Source: Flexithrix dorotheae DSM 6795 (GTDB taxonomy: Bacteria; Bacteroidota; Bacteroidia; Cytophagales; Flammeovirgaceae). Taken from it: DNA of 64,000 bases. How positions within the stretch are numbered: position 1 is the first letter of the stretch; the number at the start of each line of letters is the position of its first letter. Both the position numbers and the translations under genes were made by a program. The stretch is from assembly GCF_000379765.1 (NCBI RefSeq), contig NZ_KB903465.1, positions 248,001 through 312,000 on the forward strand, read 5' to 3'. The notes below the pieces were generated by a model, which did not search any database, was not told the origin of the DNA, and worked only from the letters and a program-made list of their open reading frames with translations. This document shows positions 18,003 through 57,610 of the stretch, piece by piece.

Positions 18003-18118
18003 GAAAGTTTACTTCCCCCTCGGTGAGGGGGTTAGGGGGAGGAAATTGGATTTTCTCACTAATTACATTTTTAAAAACCCTACAAGATTAGCCCCGAGGG
18101 GGCCAGGGGGAGAAAATC
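18003..18118. repeat. GC-rich palindromic interspersed repeat
   Basis: Contains CCCCCTCGGTGAGGGGG (18014-18031) followed by TTAGGGGGAGG, then about 45 AT-rich bases and GCCCCGAGGGGGCCAGGGGG. Related copies occur at 19595-19680, 22841-22916, 48530-48562 and 48888-48975. A 67-codon frame that crosses this repeat is not a gene. Confidence 0.7.
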
Positions 18119-19594: not shown

Positions 19595-19680
19595 ATGCCC
19601 CTACCCCTCGGAATGCCAAACCACATCAAAGGGGAAAAAGTGATATCCCCCTCACCGAGGGGGTTAGGGGGAGGTTTTGA
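19595..19680. repeat. GC-rich palindromic repeat with conserved 20-nt core
   Basis: The core CCTCGGAATGCCAAACCACA at 19606-19625 differs by one base from the cores at 45402 and 45993. It is followed by CCCCCTCACCGAGGGGG and TTAGGGGGAGG. Confidence 0.8.
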
Positions 19681-43459: not shown

Positions 43460-44151
43460 GCTAAATCAGTTAACTTATTCTCTGCCTTTTCCCAATCTTT
43501 CATAGTATCAATATTCACATAATGGTTTTTATCCGCAAGAATATATCCTAATTTCTGCCCATACAATGAGTTTTCGTTTAAGATTACTTCAGCTTTAGTA
43601 AGATAAATTGACCCATCTCTGAAATAAGCCTTAGGGAGTTCTTGTCGTCTTGGGACCAATGTATTTTCTCCTGTCGCTATTTTTAACTTCCCCTCAGGGT
43701 CTGGCTCAAATACCCAATGTGGATTATACTCATGAGGTACCTCCAATACAGAAATCAGCGCATCCATTTCTTTCTGTTTGAACTTTGTTATAGCCTCATC
43801 TATAAATCCTTTTGGTCGAAAGGGATTAGTAGGTTGTAATAAACAAACTGCATCATACTGAATACCATTATCAAGAAACCAATTTAAAGTATACTGAATA
43901 ACAGGAAGTGTTGGAGTAGCATCTTCAGCTAATCTTTTAGGCCTAAGGAAAGGCACTTCTACACCTAACTCTTTCCCTACTTCAGCAATTTTGGGATCAT
44001 CTGTATTTAACATCAATTGATCAATCCCTTTAGCTTCCAAAGCCCGCTCTATGGTATAATATATAAGAGGGTGCTTTCCTAACAACTTAATATTCTTCCC
44101 AGGTACACCCTTTGAACCTCCTCTGGCTGGTATAATCCCTAATATTTTCAA
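43447..44151 (-). CDS. neuA: CMP-nonulosonate (acylneuraminate) cytidylyltransferase
   Basis: 234 residues, single-domain. IIPARGGSKGVPGKNIKLLG is the CTP-binding signature; LMLNTDDPKIAEVGKE and CLLQPTNPFRPKGFIDEAI follow. It activates the product of NeuB with CTP. The start is TTG within TTGA, overlapping the neuC stop by 4 bases. The sequence cannot separate sialic from legionaminic or pseudaminic acid. Confidence 0.88.
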   Translation of the reverse strand: MKILGIIPARGGSKGVPGKNIKLLGKHPLIYYTIERALEAKGIDQLMLNTDDPKIAEVGKELGVEVPFLRPKRLAEDATPTLPVIQYTLNWFLDNGIQYDAVCLLQPTNPFRPKGFIDEAITKFKQKEMDALISVLEVPHEYNPHWVFEPDPEGKLKIATGENTLVPRRQELPKAYFRDGSIYLTKAEVILNENSLYGQKLGYILADKNHYVNIDTMKDWEKAENKLTDLACVE

Positions 44152-45308
44152 TACACAAGTTTTTTATCAAATGTTAATGGCAGAGTTGCCAGTAAATGGG
44201 CTGTTTTTAAACCAGCCTCCCCATCCCCATAAATTTTATCTGGAGGATAATTTCCATTTTGCCACTGCTCTTCTATACTTTTGATTAGGTTATCAACATC
44301 ATAATTAATATCTTTTACATTTCTTCCTCTCTCCCGTCCTGCTTGCCTGGTTCCAATATTAATCACAGGAACACCCAAATAGGCACATTCCCGTATGCCC
44401 ACACTAGAGTTCCCTATCAGGCATTTGCTGTTTTTTAATAATCGTAGAAAGTCATTGGGTTCCATATTTTTAAAGAAATGTACATGAGGCATCTCATAAA
44501 TTTCTCTGTAATGCCTTATTCCTCTTGAAGTGCCATCTGCCCCTGCATCTACATTTGGCCAGAACCATAATGTGGGGTATTGCAATTGATTAATGGCTTC
44601 CAGGGTAATCTCTATATGTTTTCTGGATTCTTTATATTCAGTAGTTACCGGATGCTGCATGACGACCAGATAACCGTTCTTCAATTCCTTCAGGGCTCCT
44701 ACCCCCCCATATTTTTCAAAGGGATCGAAATCCATTTCTGGTTGCATCAAAACTTCATGCGCTAAATCTATAGATGGACAGCCGGTTAAGAATACCTTTT
44801 CAGGGTCTTCCCCCATCTTTATTACTCTTTCCTTAGCCTTGGGGGAAGCTACAAAATGCAAATCAGCCAGTTTGGTGATGGCATGTCTTACTTTTTCATC
44901 TATATTCCCGGTTACCTCTCCCCCCTGTATATGCACCAGTGGAATATTCATATAAGAGGCTGCAATCGCAGTGGCCATGGTTTCAAAGCGATCTGCAATG
45001 GTTACCACTGCATCAGGTTGCAGGTTATCGAATACACTGGACAATTCTAATATGCCCAAGCCAGTAGTCTTGGCCATAGCGGCCTGGTTCTCTCCTTCAA
45101 GGACATTAAATACCTTGGCTGTAATTTCAAAGCCATCTTTCTGCATCACATTCACTGCTGTACCGTATCGATCCAATAAAGCAGAAGCCGCTACTACCAG
45201 CTGCAATTCCAAATCAGGATGGTCTTTTATGGCTTGTAAGGCAGTTTTCACCCTGCTATAACTGGGCCTGGCAGTCACTACTACACATATTTTTCTTTTA
45301 TATGGCAT
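44148..45308 (-). CDS. neuC: Hydrolysing UDP-GlcNAc 2-epimerase (NeuC/LegG type)
   Basis: 386 residues. CVVVTARPSYSRVKTAL, VHIQGGEVTGNIDEKVRHAITKLADLH and CLIGNSSVGIRECAYLGVPVINIGTRQ are NeuC/LegG/PtmC motifs, distinct from the WecB-like gene at 28514. It releases ManNAc (or a 6-deoxy diacetamido analogue) from the UDP sugar for NeuB. Adjacent legionaminate genes (LegB, LegC, LegH) are absent in the window, so ManNAc and Neu5Ac is the simplest reading. An 871-base insertion separates it from neuB. Confidence 0.9.
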   Translation of the reverse strand: MPYKRKICVVVTARPSYSRVKTALQAIKDHPDLELQLVVAASALLDRYGTAVNVMQKDGFEITAKVFNVLEGENQAAMAKTTGLGILELSSVFDNLQPDAVVTIADRFETMATAIAASYMNIPLVHIQGGEVTGNIDEKVRHAITKLADLHFVASPKAKERVIKMGEDPEKVFLTGCPSIDLAHEVLMQPEMDFDPFEKYGGVGALKELKNGYLVVMQHPVTTEYKESRKHIEITLEAINQLQYPTLWFWPNVDAGADGTSRGIRHYREIYEMPHVHFFKNMEPNDFLRLLKNSKCLIGNSSVGIRECAYLGVPVINIGTRQAGRERGRNVKDINYDVDNLIKSIEEQWQNGNYPPDKIYGDGEAGLKTAHLLATLPLTFDKKLVY

Positions 45309-45389
45309 TACTTTAATGCTTTAGTTGGATATTGGGTTTGGTAGAGGCTCTTTTTATTATCTGTTTTAACATGCTCCTGCTTATTTTAA

Positions 45390-45510
45390 CCCCCCCCCTA
45401 ACCTCGGAATGCCGAACCACACTCAAGAGGGGAGACCTTTAGTTTCCCTCCTCTTGAGAGAGGAGATTTTTATTTCCCCTCTTGAGAGGGGATAAAGGGG
45501 TGTGTTTTCC
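45390..45510. repeat. GC-rich palindromic element, left flank of the DUF559 gene
   Basis: Starts with a C9 run (45390-45398) and CTAA, then the 20-nt core CCTCGGAATGCCGAACCACA (45402-45421). It ends with the perfect palindrome CCCCTCTTGAGAGGGG (45476-45491) and AGGGGTGTGTTTTCC. Its two ends are inverted repeats of each other (CCCCTAAC.. against ..GGGGTGTG). The copy at 45984 has the same plan and orientation. Confidence 0.85.
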
Positions 45511-45537
45511 TTATTTCCATTTATGATACTGCTCAAT

Positions 45538-45918
45538 CTACTTCCCCTCAAAATCCAGTATATAGTTTTCAATTGTGCTTAAGACATTATCTATATCATT
45601 CATCACTTCATCATCTTCAAACCTCAAAATATGAACTCCTAATGAATTTAATTTTTCTTCTTTTTGCCTGTCTTTTATGGCTGTTACTTCTTCCTGATGA
45701 GTGATGCCATCCAGTTCTATCCCCAGCATAAGTTCATGGCAAAAGAAATCGAGTATATAATTGTTAATTGGTTTTTGCCTGTGGAAATCATAGCCCATCA
45801 TCTGCTTTCCTTTCAAATATCCCCACAGTTTGATTTCCGATTTTGTACTGTTATTTCTTAGTGATCTGGCTAAAGCTTTAAGCTTCGGATTATAGGGAAT
45901 GATTTTCCTTTTAGCCAA
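45538..45918 (-). CDS. DUF559 family nuclease-like protein
   Basis: 126 residues. ARSLRNNSTKSEIKLWGYLKG, then DFHRQKPINNYILDFFC, LGIELDGITHQEE and LGVHILRFEDDEV match the DUF559/very-short-patch-repair-like PD-(D/E)xK fold: a Glu in SEIKLW, an Asp in YILDFF and the GIELDG pair are the expected metal ligands. It is complete. TTG is the start. It lies between neuC and neuB with palindromic repeats on both sides, apparently as an inserted unit unrelated to polysaccharide synthesis. Its biological role is unknown. Confidence 0.88.
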   Translation of the reverse strand: MAKRKIIPYNPKLKALARSLRNNSTKSEIKLWGYLKGKQMMGYDFHRQKPINNYILDFFCHELMLGIELDGITHQEEVTAIKDRQKEEKLNSLGVHILRFEDDEVMNDIDNVLSTIENYILDFEGK

Positions 45919-45983
45919 TTTGCATTAATTTGTTTTTTTGATAGTTAATTTTTTAGCTTGGGTCTTCTTTGTACATTTTTACA

Positions 45984-46156
45984 CACCCCTAACCTCGGAA
46001 TGCCGAACCACACTCAAGAGGGGAATTTTTAAAATTCCTATCCTTTATATGTATAGGTTTAAGAAAAATATACTCCTAGCTTTGGTATATCAAACCTCAC
46101 TCACGAGAGGAAAACAGAAACCTCCCCTCTTGAGAGGGGCAGGGGGTGTGTTTTCC
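45984..46156. repeat. GC-rich palindromic element, right flank of the DUF559 gene
   Basis: The core CCTCGGAATGCCGAACCACA at 45993-46012 is identical to the left copy. The palindrome CCCCTCTTGAGAGGGG is at 46124-46139, and the end reads GGGGGTGTGTTTTCC. It is in the same orientation as the left flank, and its central part differs (46025-46110). Confidence 0.85.
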
Positions 46157-46179
46157 AAATTACCCAATAAATAAAACAT

Positions 46180-47193
46180 TTAAGCATCCGAATCAATATC
46201 CTCCCAATTCAGGAACTCCCACTTTTTCATATCTCTTGTAATTCTTTTACCCACTACTGCCCTAAATTCTGAGGCCAGGATACCATGTCCTTTTGGTTTT
46301 TTGGTTTCCAGATCATTTACTGTAATCTTATGACCCTGGTTTAATGGTTTATTAACTGCCAGTGATTTTTCGAAAATTCCTTTTAGACTTGCAAAATCAC
46401 TATTGTCAGTTTTGTCAATTGGATGGTTTAAGGTCGTTTCAATAAACCTAACCCCTTTCACTAAATCTTTTACCTGCTCAATCGTTAGGGATGATTTTGC
46501 ATCCGGGCCAAACATATTTTTATCAAATACAGCATGAAACTCTAAAATTTCTGCTCCAAGTGAAGTTGCTGCTATAGCCGGATAAATTTCCCCGGAATGA
46601 TCCGATAAGCCTACAGGTATACCGTATCTCTCCTTTAATTCATTAAGCACATTTAAGCCGATTTGTTCGGGAGCCGTTGGATAACTGGTGGTGCATTGTA
46701 ACACCGACAATTCATTTCCATAGGGTTTCAGGAAGTTTATGGTAGCATCCAGCTCTTCAAATGAACTCATCCCGGAAGAGAGAATAATTGGCTTTCTGGT
46801 TTTAGCGATTTTTTCCAACATTAGAAAATTATTTACTTCCCCTGACCCAATTTTATATCTTTTAACCCCTACCTCTTCTAATAATTCCACAGCAGCATTT
46901 GAAAAGGGAGAAGACATAAATTCCAATCCCACCTCATCACAATGTTTTTTTATACCCAGCCATTGTTCCCTGGTGAATCCCATTCTTTGCCAGTATTCGT
47001 AGCGGGTATCGTCCTGAAACGAGAACTTCACTCTGAAGGGTTCATGAATACTACTTTCTGCCTCAGCAATATGGGTTTGAAACTTAATGGCATCAATCCC
47101 GGTTTTGGCAAGCGCATCAATATAAGAATGCAAAATGCCTAAACTTCCATCATGGGCCTGCCCAATTTCCGCTATAACCTCTACTTTTTTCAA
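46180..47193 (-). CDS. neuB: N-acetylneuraminate (nonulosonic acid) synthase
   Basis: 337 residues. VIAEIGQAHDGSLGILHSYI, AIKFQTHIAEAESS, KIGSGEVNNFLMLEKIA, PIILSSGMSSFEELDATI, VLQCTTSYPTAPEQIGL and GLSDHSGEIYPAIAA are the NeuB barrel motifs. The C-terminal SAF (antifreeze-like) domain is present (about 275-335). It condenses ManNAc-type sugars with phosphoenolpyruvate. The TTG start fits the family N-terminus. It should be co-transcribed with neuC and neuA were it not for the inserted DUF559 unit. Confidence 0.92.
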   Translation of the reverse strand: MKKVEVIAEIGQAHDGSLGILHSYIDALAKTGIDAIKFQTHIAEAESSIHEPFRVKFSFQDDTRYEYWQRMGFTREQWLGIKKHCDEVGLEFMSSPFSNAAVELLEEVGVKRYKIGSGEVNNFLMLEKIAKTRKPIILSSGMSSFEELDATINFLKPYGNELSVLQCTTSYPTAPEQIGLNVLNELKERYGIPVGLSDHSGEIYPAIAATSLGAEILEFHAVFDKNMFGPDAKSSLTIEQVKDLVKGVRFIETTLNHPIDKTDNSDFASLKGIFEKSLAVNKPLNQGHKITVNDLETKKPKGHGILASEFRAVVGKRITRDMKKWEFLNWEDIDSDA

Positions 47194-48282: not shown

Positions 48283-48470
48283 TAAGCAAACGCTTCAGTT
48301 GTAGTAAGCAAAGCCTCCGTTTGCCGTAAGGAAACGGTCTGCTTCTGGTAAGCAAACGACCACGTTCCTTATAAGGAAACACCTACAACCCTTATAAGCA
48401 AATGGTCACATTGCTTATAAGGAAACGACCTCTTTGCTTATTGGGATTGTAGGACGATCCCAATAAGGGA
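48283..48470. repeat. Tandem array of 22-23 nt self-complementary units
   Basis: Seven head-to-tail units start at 48283, 48305, 48327, 48349, 48372, 48395 and 48418. Each begins TAAGCAAA or TAAGGAAA. Units 4-7 end in TTCCTTA, CCCTTA or TTGCTTA, so each folds on itself, and each junction reads CTTATAAG. A last unit is a perfect hairpin TTGGGAT/ATCCCAA (48441-48463). The first three units have decayed right arms. There are no unique spacers, so it is not a CRISPR array. Confidence 0.85.
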
Positions 48471-48529: not shown

Positions 48530-48562
48530 CCACTGGCCCCCTCAGTGAGGGGGAAATCATGT
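48530..48562. repeat. GC-rich palindromic repeat (short copy)
   Basis: GGCCCCCTCAGTGAGGGGG preceded by TTTCCTCCCACT. It is the reverse-complement version of the first half of the element at 18003. Confidence 0.7.
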
Positions 48563-48624
48563 TTGTCTTTGCCAGATTCTGGTTTCTGACTCAATCTTTC
48601 ATTATAAATCTATAGCCGTCAGAT

Positions 48625-48887: not shown

Positions 48888-48975
48888 TTTTCCTCCCCCT
48901 GACCCCCTCGGTGAGGGGGAAAAATCTCTCCCCTTCTGGAAATGCTTCGGCACCCCGAGGACTAAGGGGAAGGTT
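48888..48975. repeat. GC-rich palindromic repeat between heptad arrays
   Basis: GACCCCCTCGGTGAGGGGG followed by AAATGCTTCGGCACCCCGAGG and AAGGGGAAGG. Its second half, reversed, is a degraded version of the 20-nt core seen at 45402. Confidence 0.7.
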
Positions 48976-51704: not shown

Positions 51705-54581
51705 TTAGGATTTGGCTTTCCGAGGTCTTTTTCTTTTAAAAAACATAAAGGTTATTCCCATTGCTAAACCAGTACTAATTATCCAGTATTTTGGTCTATT
51801 TATTCCCTTTTCTAATATAGGATCGGTATTTCCAATAAGGATGAAATTAGCCCAATGGACAGGGGTCTTATCAATTTTATAAAATTCATCACTTTGCAAA
51901 TAATCCAGCTTAGCCTGCCTCAAAGCCTCGTCCTTAGGTAATCCATCCATTAAATAGGCATACATCTTTTGCGCAATAAATGAGGTGGATTTGTCTTCAG
52001 CCCGCCATAAGGTCATCATAATATTGGGGCAACCTGCATAAGCAATGGCCCTTGCCAGACTCATAATGCCTTCTCCCCTTTGAAACTGCCCACTTCCCGT
52101 TTCACATCCACTCAACACCACCAGTTTGGTACTATCGAATTTGAGGTTATACAATTCATGTACAAATAATTTATAGGCTGAGGCAGTTTCATTCCCTGTA
52201 GGGAAAAAAGTAATATAGGAAAAAGATGGGTCCTCCTCATTTACACTGGCATGGGTTGCAAAATGTAAAACCGAATATTGTTGGTAAGTATTCAGAAACT
52301 CCTGTTTGGTTGCCTGCTCGTTCAGGTAAAAACTATTGGTGATCCCACTCACCTCCTGTCTGGAAGCTGGCAGGGGACTCAGAAAATTTTCCCTTGAGGC
52401 CAAAAGCCTTGGCTCATGGCCTTGGTCCCCGGCAAAAGGCGCCATAGCCAATATTTCATTTTTCGGATTTACGGAAGTTTGCTTTGCATCCAGCCAAAGT
52501 TTGGCAGAACTGGATTGGCTTATACTAAAGTTTTCTATTAAATACCTTTTCACCTTTAAATCGACCATAAATGCATCAAATGGCAAGTAATTCAATTTCC
52601 CATCTGGCACAATAACCAGTCTTCTACTGTCATTCAGGTTATTTTCAAAAGGATGAAAAAGCTGTTTGTAAATCTGATGACTTAAGTGGTCCACCACAAA
52701 AGGCTCTCCCGATTTATAATTTTGGCAGGTTTCCAGATATTGATCAATATTGCTCTTTAATTCTGGATTGAGGGGGAATCTTTTAATGGTCAATGCTTCA
52801 GGTGTGACTAAAAACCCAATAATTTCCTTTTCCCCCCAGAAATATTCCAGTAATGATTTTTCATCTTTAGCCAATTGGTGCTGTAAGGCTTTCAGGTTAA
52901 TTTCATCCCTGGCATATTTTAATGCATAGTATTGGGGATAAGCCTCAAATGATTGAATTACTTTTGACAATTCTATTTCCAGACTGGCCAATTTAGATTT
53001 TAATTTATCTATTTTTCCCTGGCTTTTTGCATTTCCCAGTTGGTTTTTCAATCTGGAAATTTGTATTTTCAAATCCTTTTCCTGGGCTAAAAGATGATTG
53101 GGGATACCGGCAAAGCTTTTTATTTCCTGGTCATTGATGGACTCTTTTAACACTGCTGCTTTGTTTTGCTCTGAAAAATTAAAGGCCAGTTCTTTATAGC
53201 TTTCATCCTGTGTTTGGGCATACAATTGCAATGACACCCTTATTGATTCCTCAAAAACCGGGGAAACTTCATTCAGGAAAAAAAGTTTGGCTTCATCATT
53301 ATGATAGCCCTTTCTAATTTTATCTCCCAATTCCATGGCCAGTCGGTAGCAATCCAGCACCTGGGGCAATTGAAAATAATCTTTTTGTAGCTTTATACTT
53401 TCCTCCATCAGTCTGGCCTTTACTAACAGAATTTGAAAGGTATACCTATCTGACAAGGTGGGAGTGGCGGGTTCTGGGTTAGTGGTGGGATCAAGGGAAG
53501 AAAAACCTGGCACCACAGAAACTAATGCCTGCTGGATTTCTTCCATAGCTTTTTGGGTTTGGCCCATTTCCATTAAAACCTCTGCACGCTTTTTATACGC
53601 CCCCGCCAACAACACATTATTAAAATCAAAATACTTTTGGTTAATTTCAATAGCCTTTTTAAAATAAACCAATGCACTTTCCAGCTTACCCAGGCCTTTG
53701 TAGGCCATCCCCATATTTTCATATAACCTAAATGCAATTGTAGCATCTATTTCAATCTGAGCATCATACTTGCTCAATGCAATTTCAAGGTATTTTATTC
53801 CTTTATCAAAATTTCCCAGCTTGTTGTGCATAACCCCCAGATTCTGGTATAAGACCAATTGGGTGATTTCTTTTACGCCTTTATTTGCCTTGGTTTCATC
53901 CAATAATTGTTGGGAAAGAGCGAGACTTTTTTTGAATTCTCCCTGCCGCTTGTAAATGGAGGCCAGATTGTTTTTGGCCCGAAATATCGCATCTGTTTTT
54001 TCGGGGAAATGGTGCTGGTATATTTCCAGAAAACGGGATGTATAATTTAAACTTTGCTTATAGTCCCCCAGGTGGTAATAATAAACTCCGATGTATCCCA
54101 TCAAATCGGCTGTGGATTTACTGTTGGGAAAATTCTTTGAAACTTCTTCAGCTACACCATAATAATATTTTGCTGAATCAGATTTATTCAGTAAGGCATA
54201 AGTCTGTCCCAAAACCTTATTCAACTTTAGCGTTTTTGAAGAATTGGAACTGAATGATTTTTCAATTTCCAAGGCACTTAAATAGTGAGGAAGGGCCTTT
54301 TTATATTCACTGTACCAATAATAAACTGCTCCGCACCTGGAATGGATCTGGGAAATTTGTGGGGAATGCACATCTATGTTTTGCTGAATGGATAAAGCTT
54401 TGTAAAACTCTTGTAAAGCGAGTGTATCCAGGCTTTTTTTCTTTTGATTAAAATGTGTTTCTCCTTTTTCCAGATGCCTGGCTACAAGAATGCTGTCTGA
54501 AGTAGAGATGAAATCAAGTCCGTAGGTGTAAATGTTAAGTGAGGAAATTAGAAGTAATAGTATAGCTAGTCTGAGTTTCAT
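51705..54581 (-). CDS. TPR-CHAT domain membrane protein (caspase-like), copy 1
   Basis: About 958 residues from ATG 54581; the longer frame begins at a TTG. A signal peptide or membrane helix opens the protein (LAILLLLISSLNIYTYG). TPR repeats fill about residues 35-390 (for example SAKYYYGVAEEV, LGYIGVYYYHLGDYKQSLNYTSRFLEIY). A coiled coil lies at about 500-550. The CHAT domain ends it: the catalytic His777 in LHFATHA and Cys826 in LSGCETG. A single membrane helix (about 930-948) with a basic tail KRKRPRKAKS follows. Topology would place TPR and CHAT outside the cytoplasm. The substrate is unknown. Very similar in plan to the gene at 54737. Confidence 0.92.
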   Translation of the reverse strand: MKLRLAILLLLISSLNIYTYGLDFISTSDSILVARHLEKGETHFNQKKKSLDTLALQEFYKALSIQQNIDVHSPQISQIHSRCGAVYYWYSEYKKALPHYLSALEIEKSFSSNSSKTLKLNKVLGQTYALLNKSDSAKYYYGVAEEVSKNFPNSKSTADLMGYIGVYYYHLGDYKQSLNYTSRFLEIYQHHFPEKTDAIFRAKNNLASIYKRQGEFKKSLALSQQLLDETKANKGVKEITQLVLYQNLGVMHNKLGNFDKGIKYLEIALSKYDAQIEIDATIAFRLYENMGMAYKGLGKLESALVYFKKAIEINQKYFDFNNVLLAGAYKKRAEVLMEMGQTQKAMEEIQQALVSVVPGFSSLDPTTNPEPATPTLSDRYTFQILLVKARLMEESIKLQKDYFQLPQVLDCYRLAMELGDKIRKGYHNDEAKLFFLNEVSPVFEESIRVSLQLYAQTQDESYKELAFNFSEQNKAAVLKESINDQEIKSFAGIPNHLLAQEKDLKIQISRLKNQLGNAKSQGKIDKLKSKLASLEIELSKVIQSFEAYPQYYALKYARDEINLKALQHQLAKDEKSLLEYFWGEKEIIGFLVTPEALTIKRFPLNPELKSNIDQYLETCQNYKSGEPFVVDHLSHQIYKQLFHPFENNLNDSRRLVIVPDGKLNYLPFDAFMVDLKVKRYLIENFSISQSSSAKLWLDAKQTSVNPKNEILAMAPFAGDQGHEPRLLASRENFLSPLPASRQEVSGITNSFYLNEQATKQEFLNTYQQYSVLHFATHASVNEEDPSFSYITFFPTGNETASAYKLFVHELYNLKFDSTKLVVLSGCETGSGQFQRGEGIMSLARAIAYAGCPNIMMTLWRAEDKSTSFIAQKMYAYLMDGLPKDEALRQAKLDYLQSDEFYKIDKTPVHWANFILIGNTDPILEKGINRPKYWIISTGLAMGITFMFFKRKRPRKAKS

Positions 54582-54736: not shown

Positions 54737-57610
54737 TTAAGCAAAGGTTTTACTCCCTTTCCTCTTCAAAAACATTAAAACAGCACCCACAATTAGCGCC
54801 AGACTAACCCAAAAATAAATCTGTTTGTAAATCGGAAGGCTGGCGATGGGGTCAGCATTTCCAATTACGATAAAATTAGCCCAATGTACTGGGGTTTTAT
54901 CGATTTTAAAAAATTCATCGGAATGCAGGTAATCGAGTTTGGCCTGCCTTAAAGCTTCATCTTTAGGCTTTCCGTCTTCCAGGTATTGATACATTTTTTG
55001 GGCAATAAAAGAGGTGGATTTGTCCTCTGCCCGCCATAAGGTCATAATGATATTGGGGCATCCAGCATAGGCTATAGCCCTTGCAAGGCTCATAATCCCC
55101 TCCCCTCTTTGGAATTGTCCGCTTCCTGTTTCACATCCACTCAACACCACCAGTTTGGTACTGTCAAAATTCAGGTTGTACATTTCATGGACATATAACC
55201 GATATTCTGCATCCTCACCTTTGGGGAAAAAGGTAATATAAGAAGACGAAGGTTCCTCTTCATTTACTTCAGCATGAGTGGCAAAATGGAGGATATTATA
55301 ATTCTGGTATTCATCCAAAAAACGATTTTTAGTAGCTTCTTCATTGATATAAAAATGATTACTGATCCCTTTCACCTCCTGCCGGGTGGCGGGTAATGGA
55401 CTAAAATATTTATCCCTAAATGCCACATATCCCAGGGCTACATCCTTGGCAAAAGGAGCAATAGCCAGAATTTCATTATTCCCTGAATTATTAATTTTCT
55501 GTGCATCCAGCCATAACTTTCCAGAATAGGATTGGCTAATGATATATTTTTCAATTAAATAGAAATCTTTGTGGGGCTCAGTTTTCAAGGCATCAAAGGG
55601 TAGGTAATTAAGTTTGCCATCGGGGATGATTACCAGTTTTTTATATTTTGAAAGCTCCTTTTCAAATGGTTCGAAAATTTTATTATAAATTTCATAGCCG
55701 GACTGATGTCCTCCAAAAGGCTCCCCGGGGCTATAAGTTTTATAAGCAGTATAATATTGATCTATATTATTAATTAATCCACTATCCAAGGGAAATCGCC
55801 TGATCAGAAAATTTTTTCCACTTACCAGAAACCCAATAATTTCTTTTTCTCCCCAAAAATATTCTAAAAGAGCCTTATCTTCATGCTGAAGTCTTTTTTG
55901 AAATTCCTCCAGATTTACTTCATTGTTGGCATACTTTAATGCATAATAATTTGGATAAGCTTCAAATGATTTAATCACTTTCCCTAATTCTATTTCCAAA
56001 TCTGCCAACTGCAAGGTGTATTTATCAATTTTTTCCTGGTCATTGGCATTAGCCAGTCTGCTTTTTACCTTGGAGAGCTGGATTTTCAAATCCCTTTCCT
56101 GTACCAATAATTCTTTGGGGATTCCTGTGTATCCCTTTATCTCATGGTTCTTAATGGATTCTTCAAGAACAGCAGCCTTACTTTGTTCTGAAAACTGGAA
56201 AGCCAAATGTTTGTACTTTTCATCCTGCGTATGTTCAAATAATTGAAGAGCTACACGAATAGACTCCTCAAATACCGGATATACATTGTTTTGAAAAAAT
56301 ATTTTTGCTTCATCTGAATCATAACTTTTTCTTATTTTCTCAGCGAGTTGTAAGGCTAATTGGTAAGTATCTAATACTAATTTGGAAGTTTCAGAATCGT
56401 TGTTTTCATTAAATTTTTCAATTATTTCAGCCTTGCTAACTAAGATTCTGAAAGTTTCAAGATCAGATAAAGTTTGAAAAGGATATTTTGGGTTGACTTT
56501 AAAATTTGGGTTATTAAAATTAATTATAACAGTTTTTATGGCTTCCTGAATTTCATCCTTAGCCTCCTTACCTAAATTCATTTCATTAAGGAGAAGAGCT
56601 TTTTTCATTAGAATATTAGCAAATAAAACATTTTTATAGGGAAAATATTTATTATACTCAATAATGGCTTTATCGAAATATTTCATCGCAGAATCAACTT
56701 TACCTAACCCTTGATATGAAGTCCCTAAGTTTTCGTAAAGCCTTACAGATAAACGAGAATTTGAACTCTCGTCAAAATTATGATTATCAATTCCACGTTT
56801 AATAAACTTAATTGCTTCTTCAAATTTATCCACTTCATTATATACAGTACCTAGATTCTGATAAAGGATAACAAAAGTTTCAGCAATTCTTACATCATTT
56901 TTACTTCTATCAGTTTGATCTATGATTTCTTTATATATTTCTAAACTTCTATCATATTTTTCCAGCCTTTTATAAATTGTAGCAATATTATTTTTTGCTC
57001 GGTAAATTGCCTTTTTATAACTAGGGAAATAATTTTCATATATTTCTAAATACCTTAAGGAATAATTCAATCCTTGAATGAAATTTCCCGTTTCAAAATA
57101 TAAAAGCCCAATAAAACCATAAAGATCAGCTGTAGTTTTACTATGTGGATAATTATCAGACAATACTTCTGCCTCTGAATAATAAAAAAATGCAGAATCA
57201 ATTTCTCCAAGATTCCAAAACACCTGACCGATTTTTTTATTGATTGACAACAAACTTTCCGTGTTGTTTGGCAGGTTTTCTTGGATTGATAAAGCTCTTT
57301 TATAGTAATCTAATGCACTATTAAAATCTTTATACCAATAAAAAACACTTGCACATCGTAAATTTACCTTTACATTTAAATCAGAAAGCTGGCTTTGATG
57401 ATTCAAAATGTCTATTGCACTCAAATATTCTTTTAAAGCCAAGGAATCTAATTTTTTCTTTTTCGATTCAAAAAACTTATCTCCAGCTTTAATATAATAA
57501 TTAACTTTTGTTGAATCAGAAATAGTAAACTCAGCATGAGAGTTCAATGGAGCAATGAATAAAATAAAAATTATAAATACCACTACTCTAATTAACATAA
57601 TAGATAACAT
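54737..57610 (-). CDS. TPR-CHAT domain membrane protein (caspase-like), copy 2
   Basis: 957 residues. N-terminal hydrophobic segment (MLIRVVVFIIFILFIAPLNS), TPR repeats to about residue 390, coiled coil about 490-545, CHAT domain with His779 (LHFATHAEVNEE) and Cys826 (LSGCETGSGQFQRGEG), C-terminal membrane helix (YFWVSLALIVGAVLMFL) and basic tail. The CHAT half is nearly identical to copy 1 over long stretches, while TPR segments have drifted, so the two are tandem duplicates. Such proteases are known as effectors in defence systems in other lineages, but the membrane form in Bacteroidota is not assigned a role. Expressed after a lipoprotein gene on the same strand. Confidence 0.93.
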   Translation of the reverse strand: MLSIMLIRVVVFIIFILFIAPLNSHAEFTISDSTKVNYYIKAGDKFFESKKKKLDSLALKEYLSAIDILNHQSQLSDLNVKVNLRCASVFYWYKDFNSALDYYKRALSIQENLPNNTESLLSINKKIGQVFWNLGEIDSAFFYYSEAEVLSDNYPHSKTTADLYGFIGLLYFETGNFIQGLNYSLRYLEIYENYFPSYKKAIYRAKNNIATIYKRLEKYDRSLEIYKEIIDQTDRSKNDVRIAETFVILYQNLGTVYNEVDKFEEAIKFIKRGIDNHNFDESSNSRLSVRLYENLGTSYQGLGKVDSAMKYFDKAIIEYNKYFPYKNVLFANILMKKALLLNEMNLGKEAKDEIQEAIKTVIINFNNPNFKVNPKYPFQTLSDLETFRILVSKAEIIEKFNENNDSETSKLVLDTYQLALQLAEKIRKSYDSDEAKIFFQNNVYPVFEESIRVALQLFEHTQDEKYKHLAFQFSEQSKAAVLEESIKNHEIKGYTGIPKELLVQERDLKIQLSKVKSRLANANDQEKIDKYTLQLADLEIELGKVIKSFEAYPNYYALKYANNEVNLEEFQKRLQHEDKALLEYFWGEKEIIGFLVSGKNFLIRRFPLDSGLINNIDQYYTAYKTYSPGEPFGGHQSGYEIYNKIFEPFEKELSKYKKLVIIPDGKLNYLPFDALKTEPHKDFYLIEKYIISQSYSGKLWLDAQKINNSGNNEILAIAPFAKDVALGYVAFRDKYFSPLPATRQEVKGISNHFYINEEATKNRFLDEYQNYNILHFATHAEVNEEEPSSSYITFFPKGEDAEYRLYVHEMYNLNFDSTKLVVLSGCETGSGQFQRGEGIMSLARAIAYAGCPNIIMTLWRAEDKSTSFIAQKMYQYLEDGKPKDEALRQAKLDYLHSDEFFKIDKTPVHWANFIVIGNADPIASLPIYKQIYFWVSLALIVGAVLMFLKRKGSKTFA

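Follow-up and report, generated by a model that had tools for sequence, protein, structure and literature searches.

The window, i.e., the 64,000-nucleotide stretch of the Flexithrix dorotheae DSM 6795 genome that was analysed, contains a small gene of the DUF559 family between neuC and neuB (Table 1). The open reading frame matched PF04480 with an E-value of 2.9e-31 and 108 bits, the curated cut-off being 20.6, and thus belongs to DUF559; Pfam reported for the protein only this family and the related MTES_1575 nuclease. The gene is a singleton in the 9.5-Mb genome (the window lies on contig C36). A sequence-only reading of the window had proposed that a DUF559 nuclease gene splits neuC from neuB. 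Both neighbours were recovered by Pfam, the gap of 871 bp is exact, and the observation of a repeat-flanked DUF559 gene between neuC and neuB is confirmed.

Table 1. Features at and near the neuB-neuC junction (window coordinates)
Feature	Position	Strand	Basis
neuC, neighbour downstream of DUF559	44148..45308	-	PF02350 (Pfam)
neuB, neighbour upstream of DUF559; parted from neuC by the insertion	46180..47193	-	PF03102 (Pfam)
871-bp insertion between neuB and neuC, plan REPIN - DUF559 - REPIN	45309..46179	.	neuB-neuC gaps in relatives
Gene for the Vsr-like DUF559 nuclease (126 aa), starting with TTG	45538..45918	-	PF04480, AlphaFold, fold matches
REP-like unit adjoining the gene upstream, CCCCTCTTGAG-TGTGGTTCGGCATTCCGAGG-TTAGGGGTGTGT, tail gene-facing	45981..46023	-	sequence; relatives agree in position and tail
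Gene-distal REP-like unit upstream, CCCCTCTTGAGAGGGG + CAGGGGGTGTGTT, tail outward	46124..46152	+	sequence, genome match
REP-like unit adjoining the gene downstream, CCCCTCTTGAGAGGGG + ATAAAGGGGTGTGTTTT, tail gene-facing	45476..45508	+	sequence; 7-bp hairpin fold
Hairpin inside the downstream pair, CTCCTCT-TGAG-AGAGGAG	45448..45465	.	sequence; fold of whole flank
Gene-distal REP-like unit downstream, with a variant hairpin and a degenerate tail, GGGGGGGGG replacing GGGGTGTGT	45390..45432	-	sequence
Resident repeat with related core (1 mismatch), TTAGGGGGAGG tail, no DUF559 nearby	19599..19674	+	pattern search

Each flank of the gene is a REPIN-like pair, composed of two inverted units of hairpin plus tail. 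The signature of the units, a hairpin with the tail GGGGTGTGT, stands in inverted copies on both sides of the nuclease gene and faces it: read in the direction of the gene, CCCCTCTTGAG-TGTGGTTCGGCATTCCGAGG-TTAGGGGTGTGT is found just upstream and ACACACCCCTTTAT-CCCCTCTCAAGAGGGG just downstream. The outer unit of the downstream pair (45390..45432) has its tail pointing outward. The element had been described earlier as occurring in direct copies; the gene-proximal units are in fact inverted repeats, and the apparent direct copies result from the presence of a REPIN-like pair on either side of the gene. Similarly, the 16-mer CCCCTCTTGAGAGGGG, present at 45476-45491 and 46124-46139, had been called a perfect palindrome, but it reads CCCCTCT-TG-AGAGGGG, a 7-bp stem with a TG loop, whose reverse complement has a central CA. 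Folding of the downstream flank gave a z value of -3.8, better than 200 of 200 shuffled sequences; the upstream flank is more degenerate, and the part of it that was folded gave a z value of -1.3, with some shuffles doing as well. The Rfam search returned no match. Repeat counts for the whole genome were obtained by pattern searches; at up to two mismatches, all copies of CCCCTCTTGAGAGGGG except one were located in the two flanks.

The flanks also share a 20-nt core, CCTCGGAATGCCGAACCACA, exact at 45402-45421 and 45993-46012 on the same strand. It constitutes one arm and the loop of a variant hairpin, which is also the hairpin of the unit adjoining the gene upstream (45981..46023). The exact copies of core and 16-mer in the same orientation, as described before, are thus present; the core, however, is no marker of DUF559. 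With up to three mismatches it was found 11 times in the genome, compared with no copy of the reversed control, and 13 times in another count; 11 of these 13 copies lie outside the window flanks, in repeats with a different tail. As a marker the core was rejected, being near-specific to the window's genus and situated mostly away from DUF559 (13 copies in its own genome, two in a congener, one weak match in one other genome, none in 15 family members). Since it also occurs in resident repeats which carry a different tail (CCTTCCCCTAA/TTAGGGGGAGG) and no DUF559, the units of the window look, by their sequences, like hybrids of a resident hairpin and a DUF559-type tail. A resident core within the flanks would also suit another explanation, namely that DUF559 is a free-standing homing endonuclease which entered pre-existing hairpin repeats, these being its targets and having spread otherwise. 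The canonical hairpin, however, stands in this genome almost solely beside the gene, which argues that such targets were not pre-existing in number.

Several other repeats are present in the window. A second hairpin family, TCCCCCTCGGTGAGGGGGTTAGGGGGAGG, occurs at 18014-18042, 19646-19674, 48536-48564 and 48902-48930, in a genome without a DUF559 partner for it. A 23-nt unit (TAAGCAAACGACCACGTTCCTTA) is repeated four times in tandem in the intergenic region 48349-48449. Two stretches of 300 bp, 51817-52116 and 54846-55145, are 80% identical at a distance of 3 kb and belong to apparently paralogous adjacent tetratricopeptide/CHAT-like genes.

Comparison with other loci (79 from named genomes and about 50 from the class of the window) showed a common plan in both sets. 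A match score of at least 14 between the inverted flanks was reached at 78% of 72 loci and in 1% of 658 control windows; in the diverse set the values were 61% of 49 loci and 0 of 219 controls. GC-rich hairpins were found within 200 bp of DUF559 upstream at 97 and downstream at 94 of 125 loci, compared with 3/122 and 5/118 at about 1.1 kb away and with 16% of other intergenic segments. In a gene-calling control, hairpins accompanied DUF559 in 63% (upstream) and 33% (downstream), and other genes in 6%; the lower DUF559 values here are probably due to the many called ORF ends which extend into the repeats. Matches of the family search with frames of 1777-1963 aa were put aside as large proteins. 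The stems vary by subfamily (CCCCTCT/AGAGGGG, CCCCTCC/GGAGGGG, CCCCCTTTA/TAAAGGGGG and others), with the pairing kept. Some DUF559 loci (L041, L044, L140) had no clear repeat pair. In plasmid records from other phyla, DUF559 adjoins hairpins in Pseudanabaena, Picosynechococcus, Deinococcus, Azospirillum and Sphingomonas, in places with sufB and sufC or paaD and paaZ on its two sides; the repeat at the Deinococcus locus is inverted, nearly perfect and about 50 bp long. Several of these loci possess a hairpin on a single side only, and the paired layout is therefore best established in Bacteroidota. The association is thus wider than was supposed from the window.

Gene and repeats also vary together. 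Over 115 loci, the higher the identity of two DUF559 sequences, the more alike their adjacent flanks tended to be (Mantel r 0.74, p 0.005, highest permuted value 0.22), while flanks taken 900 bp away gave r 0.075 in the same test; according to these comparisons, nuclease and hairpin repeats behave as one co-evolving unit. In a survey of the class, DUF559 was present in 26 of 34 genomes with the GGGGTTAGGGGTGTGT motif compared with 90 of 261 (p 3e-6, with genomes counted as independent). The abundance of the repeats differs by genome: the canonical hairpin of the window genome occurs almost only near the gene, whereas 84 copies of the GGGGTTAGGGGTGTGT motif are dispersed in genome G210, the copies inspected there being intergenic and either single or in inverted pairs; the DUF559 gene of G210 (L215) carries a hairpin and tail identical in kind to the dispersed copies. 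The dispersed REPs of genome G110, with a GGGGTGGGT tail, do not match the flanks of the DUF559 locus detected there. Such REPs without a cognate DUF559, together with the layout REPIN-gene-REPIN in the window, could mean that another enzyme, e.g., a RAYT-type HUH transposase, spreads the REPs, DUF559 being cargo that hitchhikes between two REPINs. We regard this as very unlikely in view of the co-variation across the class, the tails of the gene-proximal units, which face the gene, and the lack of the REP-specific GT(A/G)G head.

Two further observations concern repeats by themselves. The dispersed REPIN-like pairs with GGGGTGGGT tails in G110 (L209, L201-L203) represent either an orphan family or one whose partner was undetected. 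At L206 (206-2882), two REP units lie in a long open frame, in a stretch where no DUF559 was noticed, and the short repeat alone may perhaps insert into coding sequence.

Evidence for mobility came from empty sites. The gap between neuB and neuC measures -11 to +44 bp in 10 relatives versus 871 bp in the window; an empty junction, for which the sequence-only reading had suggested a search in relatives, thus exists in all 10. A different DUF559 gene (37% identical) occupies the neuB-neuC junction in another relative (L155:2420-2740, G027) as an independent insertion, and the junction may be a favoured insertion site. Empty alleles without the repeat at the exact site were found for ileS and for neuB-neuC; ileS is uninterrupted in family members and icmF in genus members. 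Many members of the class have multiple copies of DUF559, with 11 in one single-contig genome.

DUF559 was also found, together with repeat-coded linkers, as an in-frame part of other genes, either internal or terminal, namely in ileS (twice), leuS, metH (twice), recG and tsaB (L134, L130, L140, L138, L136, L142, L146). Further in-frame hosts are hisF (N-terminus), a DEXH helicase, icmF (twice), hsdR (twice) and several methylases of restriction-modification systems; fusions with thiE and queG were read from the sequence only. Alignments of the hosts to solved structures stop and resume within a few residues (RecG 514/519, IleS 538/541, MetH 757/756). A Hint (intein) domain was not listed by Pfam at 1e-5 in seven host proteins. 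Several of the in-frame insertions are on contigs of 3.9 Mb, 0.8 Mb and 0.4 Mb and are therefore unlikely to be assembly artefacts.

These insertions bear on the possibility that the hairpins, which are strong on both sides of the gene, are ordinary bidirectional terminators or insulators shielding a potentially toxic nuclease gene, and that a Vsr-type repair gene was moved by passive recombination. It would agree with the proposal that a Caulobacter DUF559 protein is a VSP repair enzyme (PMC12907096). However, units lie in frame within coding sequence, and a terminator at such a place would ruin the host gene; they possess no T-run but a conserved G-rich tail of fixed orientation, and solo and paired copies are dispersed far from any DUF559; as a whole, this explanation appears most improbable.

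A target-site duplication of fixed length was sought at 128 loci, and none was constant, in better agreement with a repair-type route than with a DDE-type one. Additional direct repeats of 14-56 bp, not part of the hairpins, were present outside the flanking units at 28 of the 128 loci and in 3 of 400 permuted pairs; they lie at variable distance (e.g., L078, L075, L054, L057, L093). A phage origin was unsupported, with two distant matches only among 50,697 phage records.

The nuclease itself is maintained. All 20 copies found in frame retain the residues E28, D57, E68, D70, H74 and D83, as do almost all of the 124 sequences compared, and the median dN/dS was 0.065 (172 pairs), the closest pairs ranging from 0.04 to 0.15. 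The AlphaFold model of the window protein (pLDDT 90.9) matched the folds of 3hrl, a DUF559 protein, and 3r3p (I-Bth0305I), and more weakly those of Vsr (1vsr, 1cw0). I-Bth0305I was recovered with E-values of 2.5e-5 by fold and 6e-5 by profile, consistent with the Vsr/EDxHD nuclease fold; the profile search against 3hrl (NGO0050) gave 7.5e-28. Membership in a defence system was rejected, since PADLOC gave weak matches only, the best being 'homing endonuclease'. VsrA of Caulobacter, a DUF559 protein, is genotoxic and causes a DNA damage response when its partner methylase is absent (PMC12907096), and the family can therefore act on DNA in vivo.

With I-Bth0305I among the closest solved folds, the weak PADLOC match to a homing endonuclease model, and genomes which contain the repeats without DUF559, the above explanation by a homing endonuclease entering resident targets gains some ground. 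It is nevertheless considered unlikely, since the flanks follow the phylogeny of DUF559 and since even within ileS, recG and metH DUF559 has its repeats, relatives or solved homologues having none at these places. The 871-bp insert is probably a single copy of a REP-DUF559-REP unit which is mobile or spreads by copying, here with an extra REP-like unit on each outer side. Cutting by a nuclease followed by repair-templated copying has been proposed for REP/RAYT and is established for free-standing homing endonucleases. By analogy, a Vsr/homing-type nuclease would recognise, nick or cut the REP-like sequence or its hairpin, and repair or template switching would then copy the REP-gene-REP unit, or short REP pairs alone, to new sites; the spread of solo repeats could be driven by the nuclease in the same way. 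The hairpin repeats often lack stop codons in one reading frame, and the unit could therefore land in genes as a tolerated extra domain.

It is quite possible, if not yet probable, that DUF559 represents a widespread REP-like mobile class in several phyla, built from a lone Vsr-type nuclease and hairpin ends, which invades operons and, in frame, the inside of essential genes, and gives rise to the dispersed hairpin repeats in many bacterial genomes. If so, the unspliced insertions in ileS, leuS, recG, metH and tsaB would oblige the host to keep an active internal nuclease domain. The insertions in tRNA synthetases and RecG raise the question whether essential enzymes can house an active nuclease and thereby guard the element from loss. 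For the large DUF559 family, whose function is unknown, the data suggest a concrete role as the enzyme of a REP-like element that evolved independently of RAYTs. Such a role would account for a class of GC-rich hairpin repeats that abound between genes in Bacteroidota and, probably, in Cyanobacteria, Deinococcota and Alphaproteobacteria. It also bears on the recent view of Caulobacter VsrA as a mismatch-repair enzyme.

What defines a RAYT gene is a pair of REPs in inverted orientation on its two sides, REPs throughout the genome and co-evolution of gene and repeat (PMC2817692). In the window and in the survey, too, a gene lies between short inverted hairpin repeats whose end is conserved, and dispersal as single units and inverted pairs, as well as gene-repeat co-evolution, are shared with REP/RAYT and REPINs. 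RAYTs are of the HUH/IS200-IS605 type, whereas DUF559 has a Vsr/PD-(D/E)xK fold, and neither Pfam nor fold comparison indicated a HUH tyrosine transposase (Transposase_17 / IS200-IS605) in the window protein. The REP head GT(A/G)G is replaced by G-rich tails (TTAGGGGTGTGT and relatives). Due to the different enzyme class and repeat head, the DUF559 unit is not a RAYT; moreover, a genome can have several copies of it, and it interrupts operons and enters genes, while RAYTs were reported to be without IS-like mobility (PMC2817692). With I-Bth0305I, a Vsr-like homing endonuclease, DUF559 shares the catalytic fold, by structure and profile, and spread to new loci, but it is flanked by hairpins and located at many unrelated sites, and no intron or intein host domain was seen; lacking a fixed site, intron or intein, the unit is not a classical homing endonuclease, though the fold is related. 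A DDE insertion sequence is equally inappropriate, as Pfam detected no transposase domain and no duplication was of constant length.

Vsr of E. coli and Caulobacter VsrA are similar in fold (1vsr, 1cw0), and VsrA has a DUF559 domain; the role given for VsrA is mismatch repair tied to a cytosine methylase, and palindromes are not mentioned (PMC12907096). Rickettsia palindromic elements resemble the units by being palindromic and lying in frame in unrelated metabolic genes, but they are about 150 bp long and were described without a nuclease gene, while the DUF559 unit brings a nuclease domain (PMC10969869). The structure of NGO0050 (3hrl) was deposited as a putative endonuclease-like protein, and its record contains no repeat association. 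In the open-access literature searched on DUF559, COG2852/YcjD, REP/RAYT, homing nucleases and Rickettsia palindromic elements, no report of a DUF559-repeat association was found. The inverted hairpins across the class and in other phyla, the co-variation, the empty sites, and the dispersed solo units and pairs speak for the original proposal of a module associated with repeats, which resembles REP/RAYT in concept and has a PD-(D/E)xK-type protein. The best reading of these sequence data would be a variant of the REP-type element, convergent with REP/RAYT and equipped with an unrelated Vsr-like nuclease, which possibly constitutes a class of its own.
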